Below, piece after piece: positions 8,629 to 35,285 of a stretch of DNA of 56,195 bases (position 1 is its first letter; the number at the start of each line of letters is the position of its first letter). This stretch comes from a virus, in the IMG/VR virus record IMGVR_UViG_3300030060_000209, positions 1-56,195 of that record; one strand, given 5' to 3'. Both the position numbers and the translations under genes were made by a program. Under the pieces are notes generated by a model that ran no database searches, had not been told where the DNA came from, and was given only the letters and a program-made list of their open reading frames with translations.

Positions 8629-8640
8629 GAACAATTGTTC
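8629..8640. repeat. 12-bp perfect palindrome GAACAATTGTTC between operons
   Basis: GAACAATTGTTC in the 78-base gap before the next gene. It is the core of the longer palindrome family found repeatedly at 27.8-31.7 kb. Here the flanks (ACAC, TTAA) do not continue the palindrome. Possibly a protein-binding site; function unknown. Confidence 0.6.
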
Positions 8641-17729: not shown

Positions 17730-18354
17730 CCTAAACAATGTACCGCCAATGGAAGGCGGAAGTGGAGACTTTGAACTCATCCCTGATGGTACTGTAGTTA
17801 GCGCCATCATCAAGCTTGAAGGTGGCGACACTGAGATTCCTGAGTATGGTGCTGGCACCTACTTCAAGCAATCTCAAACCACTAGCGCAAAATGGTTGCC
17901 GATTGAGTTGACAATTATGGGCGGTAACTTTGACAAGCGTAAAGTCTGGCAGAACATCTTTGTTGATGGCGATGCCAAGGATGAGAATGGTATGTCTAAA
18001 GCCCGAAAGATTGGTTTGAACACCATCAAGCAGATGGTTGATAGTGGTTTTGGTATCTCTCCAAAAGACGAGAGTGATGACGCTAGGGCAAAACGTGCGT
18101 CTATCCAAGGTATCCATATGATCAATGGTATGACTATATGTTGCACTTTAGGAATTGAAAAAGGCAATAATGGTTACGCTGATCGCAACAAGATCAAGAC
18201 AGTCTTGACACCAGACTCGCCTAATTATATTCAAAGTACAGGACAGGCTGCACCTGTCGCGCAAGCGCCAGTTGCACAAGCACCAGTGGCTCAGTCTCCT
18301 GCACCGCAACCGACTACAGCAACAGCGGGGGTAGCACCATCATGGGCGCGTTAG
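17722..18354 (+). CDS. DUF669-type ssDNA-binding-like protein
   Basis: 210 residues. The body (LDLNNVPPMEGGSGDFELIP, WLPIELTIMGG, RKVWQNIFVDGD) matches the DUF669 class usually found beside Sak4-type ATPases and thought to bind single-stranded DNA. A disordered Ala/Pro/Gln tail with three APVAQ repeats precedes the C-terminus, like the flexible tails of SSBs, though it lacks an acidic tip. It overlaps the previous gene by 8 bases. Confidence 0.65.
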   Translation: MLDLNNVPPMEGGSGDFELIPDGTVVSAIIKLEGGDTEIPEYGAGTYFKQSQTTSAKWLPIELTIMGGNFDKRKVWQNIFVDGDAKDENGMSKARKIGLNTIKQMVDSGFGISPKDESDDARAKRASIQGIHMINGMTICCTLGIEKGNNGYADRNKIKTVLTPDSPNYIQSTGQAAPVAQAPVAQAPVAQSPAPQPTTATAGVAPSWAR

Positions 18355-18692
18355 AGACACTGTGGGCATATATTAGCGGCAAACCTTCAGAGGTCGCTAG
18401 ATCCAGTAAGGGGGGCGCTGGAGCCGTAAAGCCCCCCACTTTCGACATCAAGTTTGAAGATGGTGTTCCGCCATACATGACTCATTCTGTTGATGACATT
18501 CCTAAACTTGCAAAGAAAACATTCAAGATGATTTCGCGTAAGAAGGGAGCAACAATTGATGAGGTGCATGCTGTTGTTGGAAAGAAGCGATCATCTGTCT
18601 ACAATCATATCTACCTGATTAAAAAGGCTGGCTATGAGATTGTGAAGACCTACGATAAAAAGTCAGGTACTCACAGGTACAGACTAGGCTAG
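18342..18692 (+). CDS. Winged-helix-like DNA-binding protein
   Basis: 116 residues. The C-terminal half (KKGATIDEVHAVVGKKRSSV then YNHIYLIKKAGYEIVK and HRYRLG) has the helix-turn-helix and wing arrangement of small wHTH domains. The N-terminus is Gly/Ser-rich and may be flexible. It overlaps the DUF669-type gene and precedes the helicase. The amidoligase at 30455 carries a similar C-terminal wHTH. Could regulate or target the replication module; ligand unknown. Confidence 0.6.
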   Translation: MGALETLWAYISGKPSEVARSSKGGAGAVKPPTFDIKFEDGVPPYMTHSVDDIPKLAKKTFKMISRKKGATIDEVHAVVGKKRSSVYNHIYLIKKAGYEIVKTYDKKSGTHRYRLG

Positions 18693-21618: not shown

Positions 21619-23781
21619 ATGAGTGTGGTAAGGTTTGGCAATACTATATCTAGTAGTAATGACATAGTTGAGGAGATTTCCCGTAAAGTCCCCAAAAGCG
21701 AACAAATTAGGATTTTGCAGGATACGTTTCCTGCCGGGCGTGTTCACGGCAAAACATTTTATATCGGTTCATTGCTTGGTGATCCGGGGCAATCGTTAAA
21801 AATAAACATTGATACTGCCTCGCAGCACTTCATGCAGGGTCAGGATTTCAACGGCGGTGTTGGCATCGGGGGCATTGTAAAGATTTTAATGGAAGCTCGT
21901 GGCATGAAGTTTCCAGAAATAAAAGAGATGTTTGCCAGTTACCTCGACAGCACTGGTCCTGAAATTGTTCGGGATAATGCGCCGATAGAAAATCCTATTA
22001 GGCCGCAGTACAACGCTAATTCACCGTATGATGCAGAATATGTGTACACCAATGCTGATGGTGAGGTGCTTGTCACAGTCCGTAGATACAATGTAAAGGA
22101 TATTGCTGGCAATCCCATGTTGAATACCAAGGGCAAGCCAAAGAAAGAGTTTAGGCCGTTTGTCGAAGGCTCACCATATTCCAAGTTCCCAGATATACGC
22201 CCGTTGTATAACATTCCGAATGTATTAGCATCTGATCGTGTTATATGGGTTGAGGGCGAAAAGTGTGCTGATGCTCTAAACCATGCTGGATACACAGCTA
22301 CCTGTACAATTGGTGGGGCTGGTGCGCTAACAAAGAAGACTGCTCCTCAGTTTGACTTTTCTCCATTACAGAACAAAGAGCTTATTTTGTGGCCTGATAA
22401 TGATCCTGCTGGCAAAAAACTAGCTGATCTCATACAGGACTTTGCTTTGGCTGCTGGCGCTAGGTCGGTCACAATGCTTACGCCGCCAATGGGTAAACCC
22501 GAAGGTTGGGATGCTTCAGATGCTTTATCTGAGGGCTATAACATTGAAGAATTTGTTAACACTAAAGCAAAGATAACCAAAACAAATATTAACCTTCTTG
22601 ATGATTCTTTTCTTGTCAGTCGGTTTGCCGGGGCTGCACCCGAACAAAAGTTCTTGATTGATGGCACGTTTCCGCTCGGAGTTCCTATTCTTTTTGCTGC
22701 GGCAGGTGATGCTGGTAAGGGCATGATGACACTGGATATGGGCATGAAGGTGGCATCTGGAAAGCCAATGACAAACACGTTTGGCGGTCTGGTCAAGGAG
22801 TTCGGAAACGTGGTTATCTTTACTGCTGAAGATGATGAAGCTGAGATGCACAGGCGCGTTGAGCGGCTTGATCCGTTTGAAGAGCGGCGTGGTTATCCGC
22901 ATGATTTAAAGATTGTGTCGCTTCCAAATGTGGGCGGTGTGTTTGCAATTATGAACGAGTCCAACGGCGAGTTCAGCACAACAGCAGAGTTTGAAAAGAT
23001 ATACGAACAAATCTTACAGATGAGTAATTTGAAATTGATCGTGTTTGATCCGCTGGCATCATTTGTTCATGCAGATGTCAACGCTGATCCTGCGGCTGGT
23101 GCTGCTTTAACAGGTCTGCTGGCTCGTATGGCAACAGAAACAGGTGCATCTGTATTGGTTTGCCACCATATGACCAAGATCAAAGACGATGCAGTTGTTA
23201 AAACACCAGAACAAGCTCGTAACCTGATCAGGGGTACAACGGCTTTGGTTGATGGTGTCAGGTCTTCATTCGCCATGTGGCAGGTCGATACGGCTCGTGG
23301 CAAAAAGACATGTGAGCGGTTGGGTTTGCCATATCAACGCAACAGTTGTTTTGATGGTGCTGTAGTCAAGTCTAACGGGCCAGCCAGTAGAAATGTTCGG
23401 CATTTTGTCCGGGATCCAATGACTGGGCTGCTAAATGATCGCACTGAAGAAATTAAATCACTAAGCAGTGGCACGATGCTTGAGATGAAACTAGATGCCA
23501 TGTTTGATTGGATCATCCATTGTGAGCGCGAAGGTGTGGCTCTAACTCATATGAGTGGCAACAACGGGGTTCATAAGCGGTCAGAAGATGCTGATGCTCC
23601 TGAGATACTGCAAGGCATCGGGAAGCAGACGTTAGAGGGATATGTTCGGACATTGCAGCAGGATGGTCGGATTGATAAGTTTCAGTTGACCGCAACAGGC
23701 GGCAGGGTATGGCTAGGAGCAGTTGATGGTCCTATGAGTCGGGGTGAATATGAAGCTGTTACAGCGAGGGATAACGTATAA
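21619..23781 (+). CDS. TOPRIM primase fused to RepA-like hexameric helicase
   Basis: 720 residues. An N-terminal region with a TOPRIM domain (WVEGEKCADAL at about 210-220, then LWPDNDPAGKK near 258, giving Glu and DxD-type acidic residues) joins a RecA-fold ATPase with Walker A AAGDAGKGMM at about 361-370 and FTAEDDEAEMH and VFDPLA after it. This is the layout of phage primase-helicases that act at replication forks. I chose ATG 21619 after GAGG rather than an upstream non-ATG start inside the nuclease gene. Confidence 0.8.
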   Translation: MSVVRFGNTISSSNDIVEEISRKVPKSEQIRILQDTFPAGRVHGKTFYIGSLLGDPGQSLKINIDTASQHFMQGQDFNGGVGIGGIVKILMEARGMKFPEIKEMFASYLDSTGPEIVRDNAPIENPIRPQYNANSPYDAEYVYTNADGEVLVTVRRYNVKDIAGNPMLNTKGKPKKEFRPFVEGSPYSKFPDIRPLYNIPNVLASDRVIWVEGEKCADALNHAGYTATCTIGGAGALTKKTAPQFDFSPLQNKELILWPDNDPAGKKLADLIQDFALAAGARSVTMLTPPMGKPEGWDASDALSEGYNIEEFVNTKAKITKTNINLLDDSFLVSRFAGAAPEQKFLIDGTFPLGVPILFAAAGDAGKGMMTLDMGMKVASGKPMTNTFGGLVKEFGNVVIFTAEDDEAEMHRRVERLDPFEERRGYPHDLKIVSLPNVGGVFAIMNESNGEFSTTAEFEKIYEQILQMSNLKLIVFDPLASFVHADVNADPAAGAALTGLLARMATETGASVLVCHHMTKIKDDAVVKTPEQARNLIRGTTALVDGVRSSFAMWQVDTARGKKTCERLGLPYQRNSCFDGAVVKSNGPASRNVRHFVRDPMTGLLNDRTEEIKSLSSGTMLEMKLDAMFDWIIHCEREGVALTHMSGNNGVHKRSEDADAPEILQGIGKQTLEGYVRTLQQDGRIDKFQLTATGGRVWLGAVDGPMSRGEYEAVTARDNV

Positions 23782-24563
23782 TGATCATATCTTGGTGGTC
23801 GGCTGGCGTTACCAGTGCGGTGGCAACAAAGCTGGCGATAGATAAACATGGTAAGGAAAACGTACTGCCAATCTATTTTCATATAGACACGGCGCACGAT
23901 GATAATGAGAGATTTATTCGGGAATGCGAAGAGTGGTATGATCGGGACATTATGGTGACCAAATCGCATAAGCACAACAATCAGTTTGAGGTCATTACTA
24001 AGGATAAATATGTTAATGGCCCCGGAGGTGCGCGGTGTACTCTTGTGTTGAAAAAACGAGTCCGGCAGCGGCTGGAGAAAGAAATGAGTTATGACGCACA
24101 AGTGTTCGGGTTTGAGTATTCCAAAAAGGAGGTCAATCGCGCTATTCGATTTAAGGAACAATATCCAGATGCCAAGCCCATCTTCCCGCTAATTGAAAAG
24201 AAACTAACCAAGCCAGAGTGTTTGTTCTACCTTGAACAAGCTGGCATTAAACGTCCTACAATGTACACGTTGGGTTATGGCAACAATAACTGCATTGGAT
24301 GTGTAAAAGGCGGTAAAGGATACTGGAATAAAATACGAAAAGATTTTCCCGAACAATTTGATCGTATGGCTGCGGCAGAACGTGAAGTGGGTAACTCCTG
24401 TATTCGCGGAGTTTATCTGGACGAGTTGCATCCAAGAGAGGGTGTTGAGCAAAAATTTGTCATGGCTGATTGTGGTAACTTTTGTGATATTGAATTTACA
24501 GAAATTATGCACAAAGACATTGATTTAATTATGCGTGAACCAGAACAATTAAGTTTATTTTGA
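23781..24563 (+). CDS. PAPS-reductase / PP-loop-like protein with altered P-loop
   Basis: 260 residues. Adenylation-type PP-loop fold of the PAPS reductase family, widespread in phages. The usual SGGxDS loop is changed to WWSAGVTSAVATKLA at residues 5-18. Further conserved parts are YFHIDTAHDDNERF and a Cys-rich NNCIGCVKGG, with later cysteines in NSC and DCGNFCD that may bind a metal or Fe-S cluster. Role may be nucleotide or tRNA modification rather than sulphate assimilation. Start overlaps the previous stop. Confidence 0.7.
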   Translation: MIISWWSAGVTSAVATKLAIDKHGKENVLPIYFHIDTAHDDNERFIRECEEWYDRDIMVTKSHKHNNQFEVITKDKYVNGPGGARCTLVLKKRVRQRLEKEMSYDAQVFGFEYSKKEVNRAIRFKEQYPDAKPIFPLIEKKLTKPECLFYLEQAGIKRPTMYTLGYGNNNCIGCVKGGKGYWNKIRKDFPEQFDRMAAAEREVGNSCIRGVYLDELHPREGVEQKFVMADCGNFCDIEFTEIMHKDIDLIMREPEQLSLF

Positions 24564-28633: not shown

Positions 28634-28653
28634 ACCCGTACAATTGTTCGGGA
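28634..28653 (+). repeat. Boundary palindrome copy 3
   Basis: ACCCGTACAATTGTTCGGGA, seven bases after the T-run of the terminator at 28605-28626. Confidence 0.65.
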
Positions 28654-28731: not shown

Positions 28732-28751
28732 ACCAGTACAATTGTTCGTAT
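28732..28751 (+). repeat. Boundary palindrome copy 4
   Basis: ACCAGTACAATTGTTCGTAT; the left arm and core match the family, the right arm is altered. Confidence 0.6.
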
Positions 28752-29233: not shown

Positions 29234-29253
29234 ACCAGTACAATTGTTCTGGT
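29234..29253 (+). repeat. Boundary palindrome copy 5 (best symmetric copy)
   Basis: ACCAGTACAATTGTTCTGGT; only one pair breaks perfect 20-bp symmetry. Located between the unit 1 terminator and the unit 2 promoter. Confidence 0.75.
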
Positions 29254-29316: not shown

Positions 29317-29345
29317 TTGACAGTGTGTGCAATGATTGCTATATA
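29317..29345 (+). promoter_or_regulatory. Promoter with internal operator, unit 2
   Basis: TTGACA (29317-29322), 17-base spacer, TATATA (29340-29345), with TGCAATGATTGCT (29328-29340) in the spacer. It drives the 29371 gene and the cyclotransferase-like gene. Confidence 0.8.
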
Positions 29346-29370: not shown

Positions 29371-29676
29371 ATGTATTACAAGTACGACGAAATCAAAGAA
29401 CACTTTGTAGACTGGATGAAAGAGCAGGACGCGGAGTGGCTAAAAGACAACAAAGACGATTGGCACCACCACGCATTCAATATGGACTATTACATTATTG
29501 GAACGCAAAAAGCGATTGAGTGGATGGGTGATCAAGTATTCAAAATCATAGAAACTATCAAAGAATATGAGCAAGACAACTTTGGTGAGGTAACAACTGA
29601 CCTGTCCAGCCCTGAAAAGCTGGTGAATATGTACGCTTACATCGTAGGTGAACAGGTTGTTAATGAATGGAGGTAG
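29371..29676 (+). CDS. Hypothetical protein (unit 2)
   Basis: 101 residues, with GGAGGGC 14-8 bases before the ATG. Acidic and aromatic-rich (HFVDWMKEQDAEWLKDNKDD; MDYYIIGTQKAIEWMGDQV), mainly helical. No known family. It precedes the cyclotransferase-like gene by four bases, so it may be functionally linked to it. Confidence 0.6.
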   Translation: MYYKYDEIKEHFVDWMKEQDAEWLKDNKDDWHHHAFNMDYYIIGTQKAIEWMGDQVFKIIETIKEYEQDNFGEVTTDLSSPEKLVNMYAYIVGEQVVNEWR

Positions 29677-29680
29677 ACAA

Positions 29681-30106
29681 ATGAGTAAACTATATTTCGC
29701 CTATGGCTCTAACTTGAACAAGAGCCAGATGGCATTGCGTAGCCCCACCGCCAAGGCGTTGGGGTCTGCGTACTTTCCAAACTGGCGGCTTGTCTTTCGG
29801 GGCGTAGCCGACATAGAAGAAGGGGACGAGCAGGACTTGTTGCCTGTCGGGATCTGGAGCATTGAAGAAGCAGACGAGGCGGCACTTGATCGGTATGAAG
29901 GCGTGAGTTCGGGACTCTATCGCAAGGTAGAGATCAACGGGATGCTAACGTATCGGATGAATCACGCGGGATATTACGGGCCGAGTCATCATTACTTCAG
30001 AACAATTTTAGATGGCTATCGGGACTTTGAACTCGATACTTCTGAACTCTATAATGCACGGGACAATGCAAGGTTCGGTGAGCAGGAGAATCGGATATGG
30101 ATGTAA
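29681..30106 (+). CDS. Gamma-glutamylcyclotransferase-like (AIG2/GGCT-fold) protein
   Basis: 141 residues. The signature YGSNL is at 8-12 (FAYGSNLNKSQM), GIWSIEEADEAALDRYEGV at 57-75 contains the conserved catalytic Glu (E73), and a buried core follows. GGCT-fold enzymes release 5-oxoproline from gamma-glutamyl amines and are often encoded beside amidoligases. The start at 29681 uses GGAGG at 29669-29673. The substrate cannot be read from the sequence. Confidence 0.8.
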   Translation: MSKLYFAYGSNLNKSQMALRSPTAKALGSAYFPNWRLVFRGVADIEEGDEQDLLPVGIWSIEEADEAALDRYEGVSSGLYRKVEINGMLTYRMNHAGYYGPSHHYFRTILDGYRDFELDTSELYNARDNARFGEQENRIWM

Positions 30107-30123
30107 ATTGTTCGGGTTCTACC

Positions 30124-30157
30124 GGGCTGCAGCCAGGCGCTGCGGCCCATTTTTTTT
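30124..30157 (+). terminator. Rho-independent terminator, unit 2
   Basis: A 10-bp stem (GGGCTGCAGC with GCTGCGGCCC, one U-G pair) with a 5-base loop, followed by eight T. Ends the cyclotransferase transcript. Confidence 0.8.
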
Positions 30158-30185
30158 GCCCAGTCCCAGGCTGCAACAGGTCATA

Positions 30186-30205
30186 ACCCGAACAATTGTT
30201 CTGGT
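30186..30205 (+). repeat. Boundary palindrome copy 6
   Basis: ACCCGAACAATTGTTCTGGT, 28 bases after the unit 2 terminator. The core GAACAATTGTTC is a perfect 12-bp palindrome. Confidence 0.7.
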
Positions 30206-30239
30206 TTTACCGAGATCAGCCAGGCAGCACCAGTGAATC

Positions 30240-30275
30240 GGGCTTCGGGTCGGGCTTCGGGCTTCGGGGTCGGGG
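30240..30275 (+). repeat. G-quadruplex motif from CTTCGGG repeats
   Basis: Six G-runs of three or four separated by CTTC or TC loops. Directly after the boundary palindrome and before the unit 3 promoter. A + strand quadruplex or an R-loop site is plausible. Confidence 0.6.
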
Positions 30276-30378
30276 TTCGCTGCCGCTGCCAGTTACTGGA
30301 TCTCCTTTCTTTCACGCGCACATGCACCCGCCCTCCCGATCAATAATAAAAAAAATACGAACAATTGCACTTTTTTGT

Positions 30379-30407
30379 TTGTTTATGCAGTGTTTGCATG
30401 GTATAGA
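30379..30407 (+). promoter_or_regulatory. Promoter with internal operator, unit 3 (amidoligase)
   Basis: TTGTTT (30379-30384), spacer of 17, TATAGA (30402-30407). The spacer holds TGCAGTGTTTGCA (30386-30398), with A and T on the outside extending the symmetry (ATGCA/TGCAT). Confidence 0.65.
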
Positions 30408-30454
30408 ATAAGACAAGAGGCCGGAGGTAGGCCCACAACACTAGAAAAAAGGTA

Positions 30455-31648
30455 ATGAAAACAATGACTTATTTAACAAACACAAGCTGGTTACTCGCTG
30501 GCGTTGAGCTAGAATTCCACAATAAGCGCGGTTTATATCGTTCTGTTGACCAATGGCGCACACTTTTGAGTGATGCCGGTTTTGATTGGATACAGGTTAA
30601 ATATGACGCTTCCGCTAATGTAGATGTGGAAATAGTCTTTCCACCAATGCCAGCGCATGGTGCCGGTGGCGCATTGGAAGATATAAACGCGGTTATGCAG
30701 TTTATTGAAACCAATGGTGGCAAGGTATCAAAAAAAGGTTGCGGCTTGCATGTTCATATTGGCAATCGTGCGGTAAAAGATATATCACCGGCTTACTATT
30801 GGACGCATTCCAAAGCTAGCATTGCATCAGGTAACGGTTATTTTATGCCTACTGATGATCAATGTCATGATGTAATGCCAATGGCATTAGTGAAAGACGT
30901 TCTTATCAGATACGCTAACCAACAAAACGATGTTGATTTATTGCTAGCACCGTCGCGGCGCGAGAATGGTTGCCAAGCTAGGTTTTGCCATTCTATCCGA
31001 CGCATTGGTGACAGTGGACGCAATCAAAACGAATTCAACAACGCGACTAGCGCGAATGAATTAAACCAAATACTAGGCAGAAAATTTGCTAGCGTTTCAC
31101 TTGATACATGGGCAAGGGTTGGCACCATTGAGTTTAGACAACATCAAGCTACATTAGAGATTGCCAAGCTTGAGGCATGGTGCTTACTTATTGATGCCAT
31201 GTTTAGGCATAGCGACGCTAACCGTATTGACTACACCGCGTCGCGCACTGTTGAAACATCTACACCGGAACAACCCTACCGCAACGGTTCTCGCATTGGC
31301 ATTTTGTGGGAAACAATCCGACGCGACGGTGGCGCGACGGTTTCAGAAATATCCAATGTAACAGGATGGGATGCTAGCACCATTCGCGCTAGGGTTTCAG
31401 AAATGCGTCAACAACATGGTGACGATGCTATCATTTGCCATAATCAGCAAGCTTATGGTCATTCGTATGGTACTAGCCAAGGCAATCACGATTTAAATGG
31501 TTATGAGGCAATCCAATCTGTCACTCGCACCATTGAAGGCGAGGCGGCATTGTTACCAGAAAATAGGCTAGGCATTGCTTCAATCTTTGCTGGATTGAAT
31601 GACCAAACATTTGAATATCTCAATTCAAGACGTAATGCGCTAAACTAG
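30455..31648 (+). CDS. Amidoligase-like enzyme fused to a winged helix
   Basis: 397 residues. The GVELEF motif (16-21), HVHIG (99-103) and TIEFRQH (224-230) are the signature parts of the amidoligase_2 family (COOH-NH2 ligases of glutamine-synthetase fold), which form amide or peptide bonds. After a helical linker, residues about 280-325 (ILWETIRRDGGATVSEISNV) are a winged-helix domain. The paired GGCT-like gene is upstream. A role in modifying proteins or peptides, or in cell-wall chemistry, is the working guess. The wHTH fusion is unusual. RBS is weak (AAAAAAGG). Confidence 0.8.
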   Translation: MKTMTYLTNTSWLLAGVELEFHNKRGLYRSVDQWRTLLSDAGFDWIQVKYDASANVDVEIVFPPMPAHGAGGALEDINAVMQFIETNGGKVSKKGCGLHVHIGNRAVKDISPAYYWTHSKASIASGNGYFMPTDDQCHDVMPMALVKDVLIRYANQQNDVDLLLAPSRRENGCQARFCHSIRRIGDSGRNQNEFNNATSANELNQILGRKFASVSLDTWARVGTIEFRQHQATLEIAKLEAWCLLIDAMFRHSDANRIDYTASRTVETSTPEQPYRNGSRIGILWETIRRDGGATVSEISNVTGWDASTIRARVSEMRQQHGDDAIICHNQQAYGHSYGTSQGNHDLNGYEAIQSVTRTIEGEAALLPENRLGIASIFAGLNDQTFEYLNSRRNALN

Positions 31649-31672
31649 CGCATTACACAACAACGCGACTGG

Positions 31673-31699
31673 GGCGCTTTACAGCGCCTCTTTTTTTTT
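31673..31699 (+). terminator. Rho-independent terminator, unit 3
   Basis: GGCGCT-TTAC-AGCGCC stem-loop followed by a long T-run. Located 24 bases after the amidoligase stop. Confidence 0.85.
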
Positions 31700-31715: not shown

Positions 31716-31733
31716 ACCCGAACAATTGTACGG
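31716..31733 (+). repeat. Boundary palindrome copy 7
   Basis: ACCCGAACAATTGTACGG, with a short ACCAGT just before it. Again directly after a terminator. The right arm has changed from GTTC to GTAC, so the core is imperfect. Confidence 0.65.
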
Positions 31734-31933: not shown

Positions 31934-31962
31934 TTGATTGTTTGCAATCTTTGCACTATGTT
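31934..31962 (+). promoter_or_regulatory. Promoter with internal operator, regulator unit
   Basis: TTGATT (31934-31939), 17-base spacer, TATGTT (31957-31962); operator TGCAATCTTTGCA (31943-31955) has perfect TGCAA/TTGCA arms. The two genes downstream include the Cro/CI-like regulator, so this site could be its own autoregulatory operator. The 31774-31930 part of the gap holds no gene I can support. Confidence 0.75.
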
Positions 31963-31988: not shown

Positions 31989-32240
31989 ATGCCTAAGTAT
32001 TTATTAAAGATCAGCGAGGATCCTATTGAGTTTGAGGCTCCTACTGCTGAAGCGTTCTTGGAAGCATGGAAGGGCGTGTTTCCGTGGGAATATGACAATG
32101 ACAACACATTCATGCGTATGGCAGCGAGGTCTGCATGCGACTGGAGCGGCAAGCCTATTAGGTTTGATAACATCTCCAGTTTTACAGCCGACATGATTGA
32201 CGCTGGTATGCTGGAGGAGGTGGGGAATGTACAAAGCTAA
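31989..32240 (+). CDS. Small protein ahead of the regulator
   Basis: 83 residues, AAGGAGGGG before the ATG. Mixed alpha/beta (MPKYLLKISEDPIEFEAPTA; EAWKGVFPWEYDNDN). Overlaps the regulator gene by 14 bases, so the two are co-translated. Function unknown; it may modulate the regulator. Confidence 0.6.
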   Translation: MPKYLLKISEDPIEFEAPTAEAFLEAWKGVFPWEYDNDNTFMRMAARSACDWSGKPIRFDNISSFTADMIDAGMLEEVGNVQS

Positions 32241-32592
32241 AGACTCTTACAGCATGTGGAACGGAGATGTTCTACTAGAAAAACGCAAGTACCTTGATAG
32301 AACGCAGATGTCGATGGCTCGTGATTTAGGCATTAGCCATCGCATGTACTGTTACTATGAGAGTGGTGAGCAGGAGATACCGCGTTCAATAGAGTTGTCT
32401 GTGCGTTACATGGAGAACACGAAGGGCAGTGACGTTTTGATGCCGACAGGTACGTTGAGTAACTTTGACAAGGATCGTATTGCTCGTTTGTGTAGTGCGT
32501 TGAATGGAATGGAGGGTACAGATGCTCATATAGACAAGGTTTTGAGGCAGTCTAAGACCGAATTAGAGTATCTGTTGTCAAAGTTTGAATAA
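32227..32592 (+). CDS. Cro/CI-like helix-turn-helix regulator
   Basis: 121 residues from ATG 32227 (GGAGGTGGGG upstream). RTQMSMARDLGISHRMYCYY (about 25-44), then GEQEIPRSIELSVRYM, forms an XRE-type helix-turn-helix, with a C-terminal helical region for dimerisation. It is the best candidate for the protein that binds the TGCARTSWTTGCA palindromes, including one at its own promoter. No integrase is present, so this is unlikely to be a lysogeny repressor; it may time accessory expression. Confidence 0.75.
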   Translation: MYKAKDSYSMWNGDVLLEKRKYLDRTQMSMARDLGISHRMYCYYESGEQEIPRSIELSVRYMENTKGSDVLMPTGTLSNFDKDRIARLCSALNGMEGTDAHIDKVLRQSKTELEYLLSKFE

Positions 32593-32636: not shown

Positions 32637-35285
32637 ATGACAAGTTTCATGGGGCCAATGGCACCTCCGCCGCCAGCACAGCCGCAGCCACAGGCGTTAG
32701 ATATTCGTACAGATCCTAACCAGAGGCAACAATTCAAACAGTTTATGAGGCAGCGCATGATGCCGATGACATCTGCGCCGATAGCACAGCCCCCTATGCA
32801 GCCCATGATGCAGTCTCCAGCTATGTTTAACATGGGTGGTGGAGTTGATATTTTTGATCCCATGTATTCAGCGCCGATGATGGCACCTCCAGCCCCTATG
32901 GGTTTTGATGATGGCGGTGCAGTTCCATCTACTTTACCTAGATCAAAAAGAGATGCCATAGCACAAAAGGTAGCCGAAATGATGGCTATTAGTGCTGAAA
33001 GAGTTAGGGCGGCTCAACAGAATGCTGAGTACAATCGTCTTTTGAGAGACCAAGATGCAATAGATCGACAAGTGGCGCTTGATAGGTTAAAGGCGGATCA
33101 AGCAGAGTCTCGACAAAATATGACGTTAGACTCGATTCTTTCTGATATTGATTACGAAAGAAGAGGTTTATTAAGAAAAGAAGACGGCGGTGCAGTTCCA
33201 CCGCGTCGTGCTGACATTGGTGGTCAGGATCACATGTTGTCGTATATCACGCCAGATGAAGCTGATATTCTAAAAGCTTTAGGTGGATCTGGCGAAGCTG
33301 GTCCTATGGGCATTCCTGCTTTTAGGGCTGATCCCGGTCAAATGGCTGAAGCTCAAGAAAGTCTTGGTCAGACTGATTATGGCGGCGGTGATGACGGTGG
33401 CGATAGCGGTGACACTTATTCAGACATGGGCATGTCTCCGGGTCGTTCACAGGCACAGTTTGGCACAACTGAATTTGCAGGAAAGTCTGAGCAAGAAGCG
33501 CAAAACATAGTAGATTCAGGTGGTGGTTCTGATGAGGCGCAAGCTGTTCAGCAATCAATAGCCACGCAACAGAGAGCAGACGCACAAAGGGCGGCGGCGG
33601 CAGAGGCAGCGCGGCAAACACAAATCAGAAACCAGCAAATTGCTCAAGACAATATAAACAGGACTCGTGACAGGGTTCAGGCTGGTCTTGCACAGAGGAA
33701 CGTAGGTGTAGGTACGACTCCAGAGGTCAATTTAACTGTTACTAGAAATCCCACGCCCACAACTTTTAATGTTGCAGATACGTTAGGCACTGGCATTGCG
33801 CCTACTGTACAAGCTGGTCCTCGTGGGCCTACGGATGGAGATGTTGATAGCCTTGATCTTCTTGATTTAGATAATTTGTTAGATCTGCAAGGCCCACCAT
33901 CATACTCTCAAATACAAAGAGTAAAAGCTGGCCCAGGTAGATCAGGTGTAACTGCGGCACTGGATTATCCTGGTGTTAATAGAGATACGTTAGCTACGGG
34001 AGTTATTCCTCGTGATCAAAGCCAAGTTCTTTTAAGTGATTTGACTGCGGATCCATCAGGCACTGAAAGATTTGGTGCAGACTATTTACCTGATTTAGCA
34101 GCGTCTGATATGGCTCGTATGGCTACGGCTGATGCAGGCATGATTACGGATGCGTCTCCAAGGAGCAATCAAGTAGTTCTTGGTGGCGGCACAGATGATA
34201 TGGGTTCAGGCGTTCCTCTTGGTGGGTCTTATGATCGTTTTGCACCTGCCGCACCAACAGGCACAACAACCACAACGACTCCTGCACAAGACGTTTTTGG
34301 CATGGAAGATGAGTATCTTGATGAGGATATTGCTGCTGGCTTTGGTCAGTATGATGGCGGCTATCGTGATTCGGAAGGGCGGAGTCGGTCATTTGGTGAT
34401 ATAAGCGGTCCCGGTGGCGGTCCCGGACGTAGTGGTTTAAGTACATTTGCTGACAGACAGCAACGAGCGCAAGATTACGCCAAAGAAATGGGTTATGACC
34501 TTACTGATCGCTCCATGTACAAAGAGGGTGCGGAGCGTGGCTTTAGTGGCATTACACAAGAGCAGTTAGATGAATTAAAAGATCGTGCCGCAGGGTCAAT
34601 ATTTGGTGATACGTTTATGAATACTCCAAGAAACATTAGTAACATATTAGAAGATAAGAGAGCCACGGGTATTTATACGAATCCTGATGGTACGGTTCGC
34701 GGTGTAACAGGTTTACCGGATCCTGACGCTTTTGGCGGTTTGATGCAGAGCGCAGTTAATTTCCTTGGTGGATTTATGCCCAACTTTATTGGTGAGACAT
34801 ACACTGGAACAGGTCCAAATCCTTTTGATCGTGGTCAAGATCCGGGCGGCGGTGGTGAAGATCGGCCTGTGAAAGCTCCAACAGATCCATGTCCAGATGG
34901 ATTTGTAATGAAGAACGGTGCTTGCACACCTATAGATACTGGTAGCGGTGTTCCTGATCAGATAGGCGGAATAGGCACAGGACAGCCTCCGCCACCTCCT
35001 GCTCCAGTTATTGTTCCGTCACCGCGTCAACCTGTTCAGACTAATTTGCAGGGTCCAGTTGGTTATGGTAGCCCGATAGCTGGGCAGATGGCACCGTCTG
35101 TGGCTAGTAATGCTGCTTTGTATCAGCAGATGTTAAATCAACAGGCCATGAACGCAGGCAGAAACATGCCTGTTGGTACTATGCCTTTACCAGCGCCTAC
35201 GAGGTTACAACAGGGCGGACCTGTATCCTCTAATCTGGATAGAGCAGCGGATAACTTTCTAAAGGCATTGATGCCAGCGGCTTAG
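32637..35285 (+). CDS. Large low-complexity virion-type protein before the terminase
   Basis: 882 residues, Pro/Gln/Met-rich at the start (MAPPPPAQPQPQ), then Gly/Asp-rich with charged helices (VAEMMAISAERVRAAQQNAE). Three GG motifs: DDGGAVPS, EDGGAVPP and QQGGPVSS. Mostly disordered-looking, with a Pro-rich end. Its place immediately before terL suggests a head or portal-vertex role, or an internal protein. It has no enzyme motif. Confidence 0.5.
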   Translation: MTSFMGPMAPPPPAQPQPQALDIRTDPNQRQQFKQFMRQRMMPMTSAPIAQPPMQPMMQSPAMFNMGGGVDIFDPMYSAPMMAPPAPMGFDDGGAVPSTLPRSKRDAIAQKVAEMMAISAERVRAAQQNAEYNRLLRDQDAIDRQVALDRLKADQAESRQNMTLDSILSDIDYERRGLLRKEDGGAVPPRRADIGGQDHMLSYITPDEADILKALGGSGEAGPMGIPAFRADPGQMAEAQESLGQTDYGGGDDGGDSGDTYSDMGMSPGRSQAQFGTTEFAGKSEQEAQNIVDSGGGSDEAQAVQQSIATQQRADAQRAAAAEAARQTQIRNQQIAQDNINRTRDRVQAGLAQRNVGVGTTPEVNLTVTRNPTPTTFNVADTLGTGIAPTVQAGPRGPTDGDVDSLDLLDLDNLLDLQGPPSYSQIQRVKAGPGRSGVTAALDYPGVNRDTLATGVIPRDQSQVLLSDLTADPSGTERFGADYLPDLAASDMARMATADAGMITDASPRSNQVVLGGGTDDMGSGVPLGGSYDRFAPAAPTGTTTTTTPAQDVFGMEDEYLDEDIAAGFGQYDGGYRDSEGRSRSFGDISGPGGGPGRSGLSTFADRQQRAQDYAKEMGYDLTDRSMYKEGAERGFSGITQEQLDELKDRAAGSIFGDTFMNTPRNISNILEDKRATGIYTNPDGTVRGVTGLPDPDAFGGLMQSAVNFLGGFMPNFIGETYTGTGPNPFDRGQDPGGGGEDRPVKAPTDPCPDGFVMKNGACTPIDTGSGVPDQIGGIGTGQPPPPPAPVIVPSPRQPVQTNLQGPVGYGSPIAGQMAPSVASNAALYQQMLNQQAMNAGRNMPVGTMPLPAPTRLQQGGPVSSNLDRAADNFLKALMPAA

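Follow-up and report, generated by a model that had tools for sequence, protein, structure and literature searches.

What does a phage do with an amide-forming ligase that carries a winged helix and lies beside an enzyme of the kind that undoes such bonds? In the portions of the literature that we consulted, the function of the widespread phage amidoligase/GGCT pairs is only proposed, and no measured activity of such a pair was found. The pair analysed here is encoded between the small and large terminase genes of a virus (IMG/VR record IMGVR_UViG_3300030060_000209), and by the window we mean the whole stretch of 56,195 nucleotides from that record. We favour, with a probability of roughly 0.4, a two-gene module that makes and breaks an amide, whose ligase most likely doubles as a BirA-like autoregulator.

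Two predicted enzymes and a fused winged helix

The gene at 30455–31648 on the plus strand encodes a 397-aa protein made up of a core (residues 1–256), a linker (257–276), a winged helix (277–355) and a tail (356–397). Against Pfam Amidoligase_2 (PF12224) it scored 46.2 bits (E 7e-12), above the curated cut-off of 22, and the signature residues of this family (ExE, D-x-S...E, HxH, SRR and EFR) are all present. In an alignment of 33 homologues, reaching down to 40% identity with the window, E59, H99, R168, R169, E226 and R228 are invariant, E18 and E20 are conserved in every homologue that covers that part, and H101 is kept in 30, the remaining three carrying asparagine (HxN). A full-length AlphaFold2 model, generated from an alignment of 26 relatives (pLDDT 82), presented a glutamate–cysteine ligase/glutamine synthetase-like fold. 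When this model was compared using Foldseek, the best match in the PDB was YbdK (7.5e-4), followed by glutamine synthetases and GshA, all with low TM-scores (0.3–0.4), so that it supports the fold class and not a close relation to any of the three; the best named viral matches were phage amidoligases. A sequence search of solved structures gave nothing significant for the fusion protein. Taken together, profile and model support well that the protein is a real amidoligase by family and fold class, with predicted catalytic activity.

The partner gene (29681–30106, plus strand) encodes a 141-aa cyclotransferase of the GGCT/AIG2 fold, which scored 26.9 bits against PF06094 (cut-off 22.8), contains the YGSNL loop and matched both phrog_2520 (2.4e-21) and human GGCT. 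Its Glu73, invariant in 16 sequences, corresponds in the alignment to the glutamate of the human GGCT motif QEGV, which we take to be the catalytic residue. PHROG matches back the assignment of both enzymes.

Residues 280–360 of the ligase were predicted, both in the full model and when the domain was folded alone, as a helix, a strand, two helices and a wing, that is, a winged helix with three helices and a two-strand wing. Nearly all matches of the isolated domain in the PDB were winged helices (MarR, Lrp/AsnC and ArsR types), none of them significant (E of at least 0.2), and a viral DUF3489 structure was among the matches in the fold search. The DUF3489 (PF11994) profile matched the domain (31283–31519, plus strand) with an E value of 2.3e-5 and 24.8 bits, below the curated cut-off of 29.5, and we describe the domain as resembling DUF3489 in sequence without filing it as a member. 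The TGW-x-TIR recognition-helix region is common to the domain and to DUF3489 proteins, whereas its conserved wing (QQxYGxxYGxSxGxHDLNGYE) is longer and it is fused to an enzyme. The winged helix is under strong purifying selection, with mean dN/dS values of 0.06–0.09 in core, winged helix, tail and GGCT, and mean pairwise identity was 0.64 for both the winged helix and its wing as compared with 0.485 for the enzyme core. Three arginines that lie in the recognition helix or next to it (R311, R313 and R318) are invariant. The domain is not basic, its net charge being −3 in the window protein and about 0 over the family, and we infer only tentatively that it binds DNA. A second window protein (18342–18692) also ends in a DUF3489-like domain (E 7.5e-5); kinship between the two domains was rejected, as BLASTP gave no meaningful similarity.

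The sequence-only reading had proposed these two open reading frames, both present at 29681–30106 and 30455–31648, as a GGCT and an amidoligase with a C-terminal wHTH, and had suggested that the wHTH may bring the enzyme to DNA or to a DNA-bound protein. Profile matches, predicted folds and some 80 homologues uphold both enzyme identities, their pairing and the fusion of the winged helix to the ligase, but not the recruitment of the enzyme to DNA: the domain has a net charge near 0, scores below the DUF3489 cut-off and gave weak fold matches.

Distribution of the module and a close relative without it

In two scans, the fusion family was found in 81 different viral contigs, all related and marine, and the C-terminal domain was detected in 80 of them, so that the fusion recurs outside the window; the contig without a detected domain is most likely L024, which ends inside the gene at residue 282. 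L269, a divergent member, also has the domain. Of the 69 contigs that extend 2 kb or more upstream of the amidoligase, 64 have a same-strand GGCT gene upstream, comprising 63 and a further contig, L032, where it lies about 5.5 kb upstream; by similarity, the five contigs whose available stretch has no GGCT fall with L032. Sampled canonical amidoligase loci of gut phages, which are close relatives of one another, had GGCT directly downstream in 76 of 80 cases and no winged helix, so that the pairing is general, as stated in the earlier reading, and the fusion is specific to the marine lineage in our sample.

Pairing of GGCT with amidoligase in phages is thus already known, and the fusion is the new part. 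One pattern-based scan of cellular genomes found no such fusion, the C-terminal domain alone was not found in annotated phage records, and a literature search, incomplete for key amidoligase papers, returned no paper describing a winged-helix amidoligase. The fusion is a conserved domain architecture, apparently unreported, in a type of phage module that is itself known. Phage amidoligases of Amidoligase_2, such as gp41 of Bacillus phage 035JT001 and those of Heliusvirales gut phages, belong to the same family and have the same motif order and a nearby GGCT, but those examined comprise 288–318 aa and lack the winged helix present in the 397-aa window protein, and in those phages the amidoligase precedes GGCT, whereas in the window it follows. 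The putative peptidoglycan-modification cassette of phiEco32, LUZ24, RIO-1 and PSA-HP1 also holds amidoligase and GGCT/AIG2 in one module (PMC3890496, PMC5498523). That cassette includes a glutamine amidotransferase, an ATP-grasp protein and a second COOH-NH2 ligase, which were not found in the window, whereas the window adds the winged helix.

The window belongs to a marine-type phage, with a terminase about 60% identical to that of Pelagibacter phage HTVC027P and 63% to that of Phage DSL-LC04. The nearest annotated relatives by terminase (55–63%), namely Pelagibacter phages HTVC027P and HTVC023P, phage 023Pt_psg01 and Phage DSL-LC04, are related to it also in portal and capsid. The module genes were not found in the searched stretches of HTVC027P, 023Pt_psg01 and DSL-LC04, and HTVC023P was absent among the matches listed in the phage search for amidoligase and in the GGCT search.

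A much closer relative, L325, has flanks 92–95% identical to the window and keeps the small terminase and a 131-aa HTH protein (32197–32592 in the window). Missing from it are a 101-aa ORF, GGCT, the amidoligase and an 83-aa ORF, and in their place stand a GP88-like gene (PF17338, L325:5419–7992) and small ORFs. This substitution by a GP88-like gene, in a phage nearly identical to that of the window, identifies the interval between terS and terL as a cargo site. Neither GGCT nor amidoligase was found elsewhere in the 36.7-kb, incomplete record of L325, and their joint absence supports that the two genes are one functional unit. Both genes are carried by 11 other long records, and one further record has neither but starts past the module, and so carries no information on this point.

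Transcription signals and intergenic repeats

The GGCT gene starts five bases past the 101-aa ORF (29371–29676, plus strand; phrog_10208, 1.6e-17), which is kept in many relatives, and the two form one transcription unit with a common promoter, read from the sequence as TTGACA-17-TATATA (29317–29345, plus strand). A probable amidoligase promoter, TTGTTT-17-TATAGA (30379–30407, plus strand), was identified in the same way and is similar in relatives. Terminators follow GGCT (30124–30148) and the amidoligase (31671–31690), both on the plus strand. The earlier claim that each gene has its own promoter and terminator therefore held for the terminators, whereas the promoter of GGCT serves the upstream 101-aa gene as well. 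A plain consensus promoter scan gave a result not above chance; the promoters, with their internal repeat, are conserved across relatives.

Two repeated elements were found around these genes. Palindrome A (AACCCGWACAATTGTTCGGGTT) is an intergenic, 22-base palindrome with the core GWACAATTGTTC, typical of this phage lineage (family loci L003–L098). Its copies in the window lie at 28638–28649 (core GTACAATTGTTC), 28736–28747, 29238–29249 (AACCAGTACAATTGTTCTGGTT), 30190–30201 (perfect core GAACAATTGTTC) and, downstream of the amidoligase, 31720–31731, with a degenerate copy just upstream of the amidoligase promoter (30359–30370) and a further site at 8629. In 49 of 50 family loci a copy precedes the 101-aa ORF by no more than 250 bases. 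The palindrome is present in 79 of the 81 loci of the family, and all 338 strict sites lie outside the module coding regions. By comparison, among 80 terL relatives without the module only two loci contained it, in one copy each. The 50 kb searched in each of HTVC027P and DSL-LC04 are essentially free of it, and the searched stretches of HTVC027P, 023Pt_psg01 and DSL-LC04 held at most one weak core. An RNA hairpin was rejected, as pairing between the arms is not more frequent than expected from column composition, and the lack of covariation argues for a protein-binding DNA site.

Element B (TTGCAATNNTTGCA) is an inverted repeat (TGCAATNNTTGCA) located in the −35/−10 spacer of several promoters and conserved in relatives. 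It is found in the spacer of the promoter of the 101-aa ORF and GGCT (29328–29339, TGCAATGATTGC), in that of the amidoligase promoter (30386–30398, TGCAGTGTTTGCA) and in the promoter of the 83-aa ORF (31943–31955, plus strand, TGCAATCTTTGCA), and its presence among relatives amounts to 49 of 50 loci for the 101-aa ORF, 35 of 72 for the amidoligase with a strict pattern and 42 of 66 for the 83-aa ORF. In L325, palindrome A is missing from the swapped interval and its single copy lies 20 kb away, at a site matching window position 8629, whereas this relative has kept element B along with the 131-aa HTH protein, suggesting that element B is more likely the operator of that protein. Palindrome A would be the better candidate site for a protein of the cassette, with which it is associated across the family, although this correlation is partly confounded by lineage history and physical linkage.

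Possible roles of the module

In the reading that we favour, the amidoligase would act as an ATP-dependent enzyme of the glutamate–cysteine ligase/glutamine synthetase fold, linking an amine to a carboxylate, which is probably the gamma-carboxyl of glutamate or of a peptide, and GGCT would undo a bond of that kind, with the glutamyl group leaving as 5-oxoproline. The fused winged helix would most likely make the ligase bifunctional in the manner of BirA, a biotin ligase and repressor. The Escherichia coli protein combines an amide-forming ligase and a winged helix in one chain and is both enzyme and repressor of its operon; the likeness is one of analogy only, since its catalytic fold differs, its winged helix lies at the opposite end and its substrate is known. 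In the phage, the winged helix would bind the intergenic sites of its own cassette, palindrome A being the leading candidate, and binding would adjust cassette expression to the substrate. Such a regulator would explain both a conserved winged helix on a ligase and a palindrome that tracks the cassette. It is weakened by the winged helix not being basic and by L325, which keeps one copy of palindrome A with no amidoligase in its 36.7-kb record; the absence of the other copies there is partly explained by their being physically linked to the cassette. Palindrome A could also be bound by the 131-aa HTH protein or by a different protein of the phage. In its most specific form, a viral BirA-like ligase-repressor that recognises a palindrome specific to the family and thereby controls the cassette encoding it, while its partner erases the product, we consider the proposal rather unlikely.

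Remodelling of the host envelope offers a different account, in which the module would, for instance, attach and remove glutamyl links in peptidoglycan precursors and so block superinfection, with the winged helix as a protein-binding or dimerisation domain that stays off DNA. An envelope change that blocks superinfection is what PMC5498523, PMC10580990 and PMC11945000 propose for phiEco32, RIO-1, LUZ24 and PSA-HP1, with their cassettes of amidoligase, GGCT, GATase and ATP-grasp genes, and a domain that is not basic fits this account, as does the frequency of plain amidoligase and GGCT pairs in gut phages. However, a winged helix would be unusual in a cell-wall enzyme, and the window record gave no match to COOH-NH2_lig, GATase_6 or R2K_3 ATP-grasp, in searches where COOH-NH2_lig (PF14395) had no working positive control, the ATP-grasp families were tried in part and the record is possibly incomplete. 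On balance we regard this account as somewhat doubtful. Binding of the protein to its own intergenic DNA would set a regulatory role in the cytoplasm apart from the cell-wall role that is usually proposed.

Two further explanations keep the winged helix at the centre. It might direct the ligase to DNA, or to a protein complex bound there (host RNA polymerase, for example), where a neighbouring protein would be amidated and GGCT would reverse the mark; the strong conservation of the winged helix, its fusion to an enzyme that retains its active-site residues, and the three invariant arginines are what this would lead one to expect. The present observations do not separate it from autoregulation, it has no known target and the domain is not basic; we hold it to be improbable. 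Alternatively, the ligase fold might serve a regulator as a ligand sensor that has lost catalysis, as in ROK-family repressors, which would suit a winged helix more conserved than the core and the asparagine at position 101 in three homologues. The invariance of the other signature residues and the retention of a cyclotransferase partner with its catalytic residue make this very improbable. For the autoregulatory reading, the fusion lineage, a candidate operator and a relative without the module provide a direct experimental handle.

A role of the module as a defence system was rejected, as a PADLOC search gave no meaningful match. Elsewhere in the window, a gene at 23781–24563 resembles phosphoadenosine phosphosulfate reductase (phrog_424, 5.7e-46). 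Upstream of the large terminase, an 882-aa low-complexity protein (32637–35285) is highly variable among relatives, and the block formed by its residues 179–229 matches more than once in several loci.
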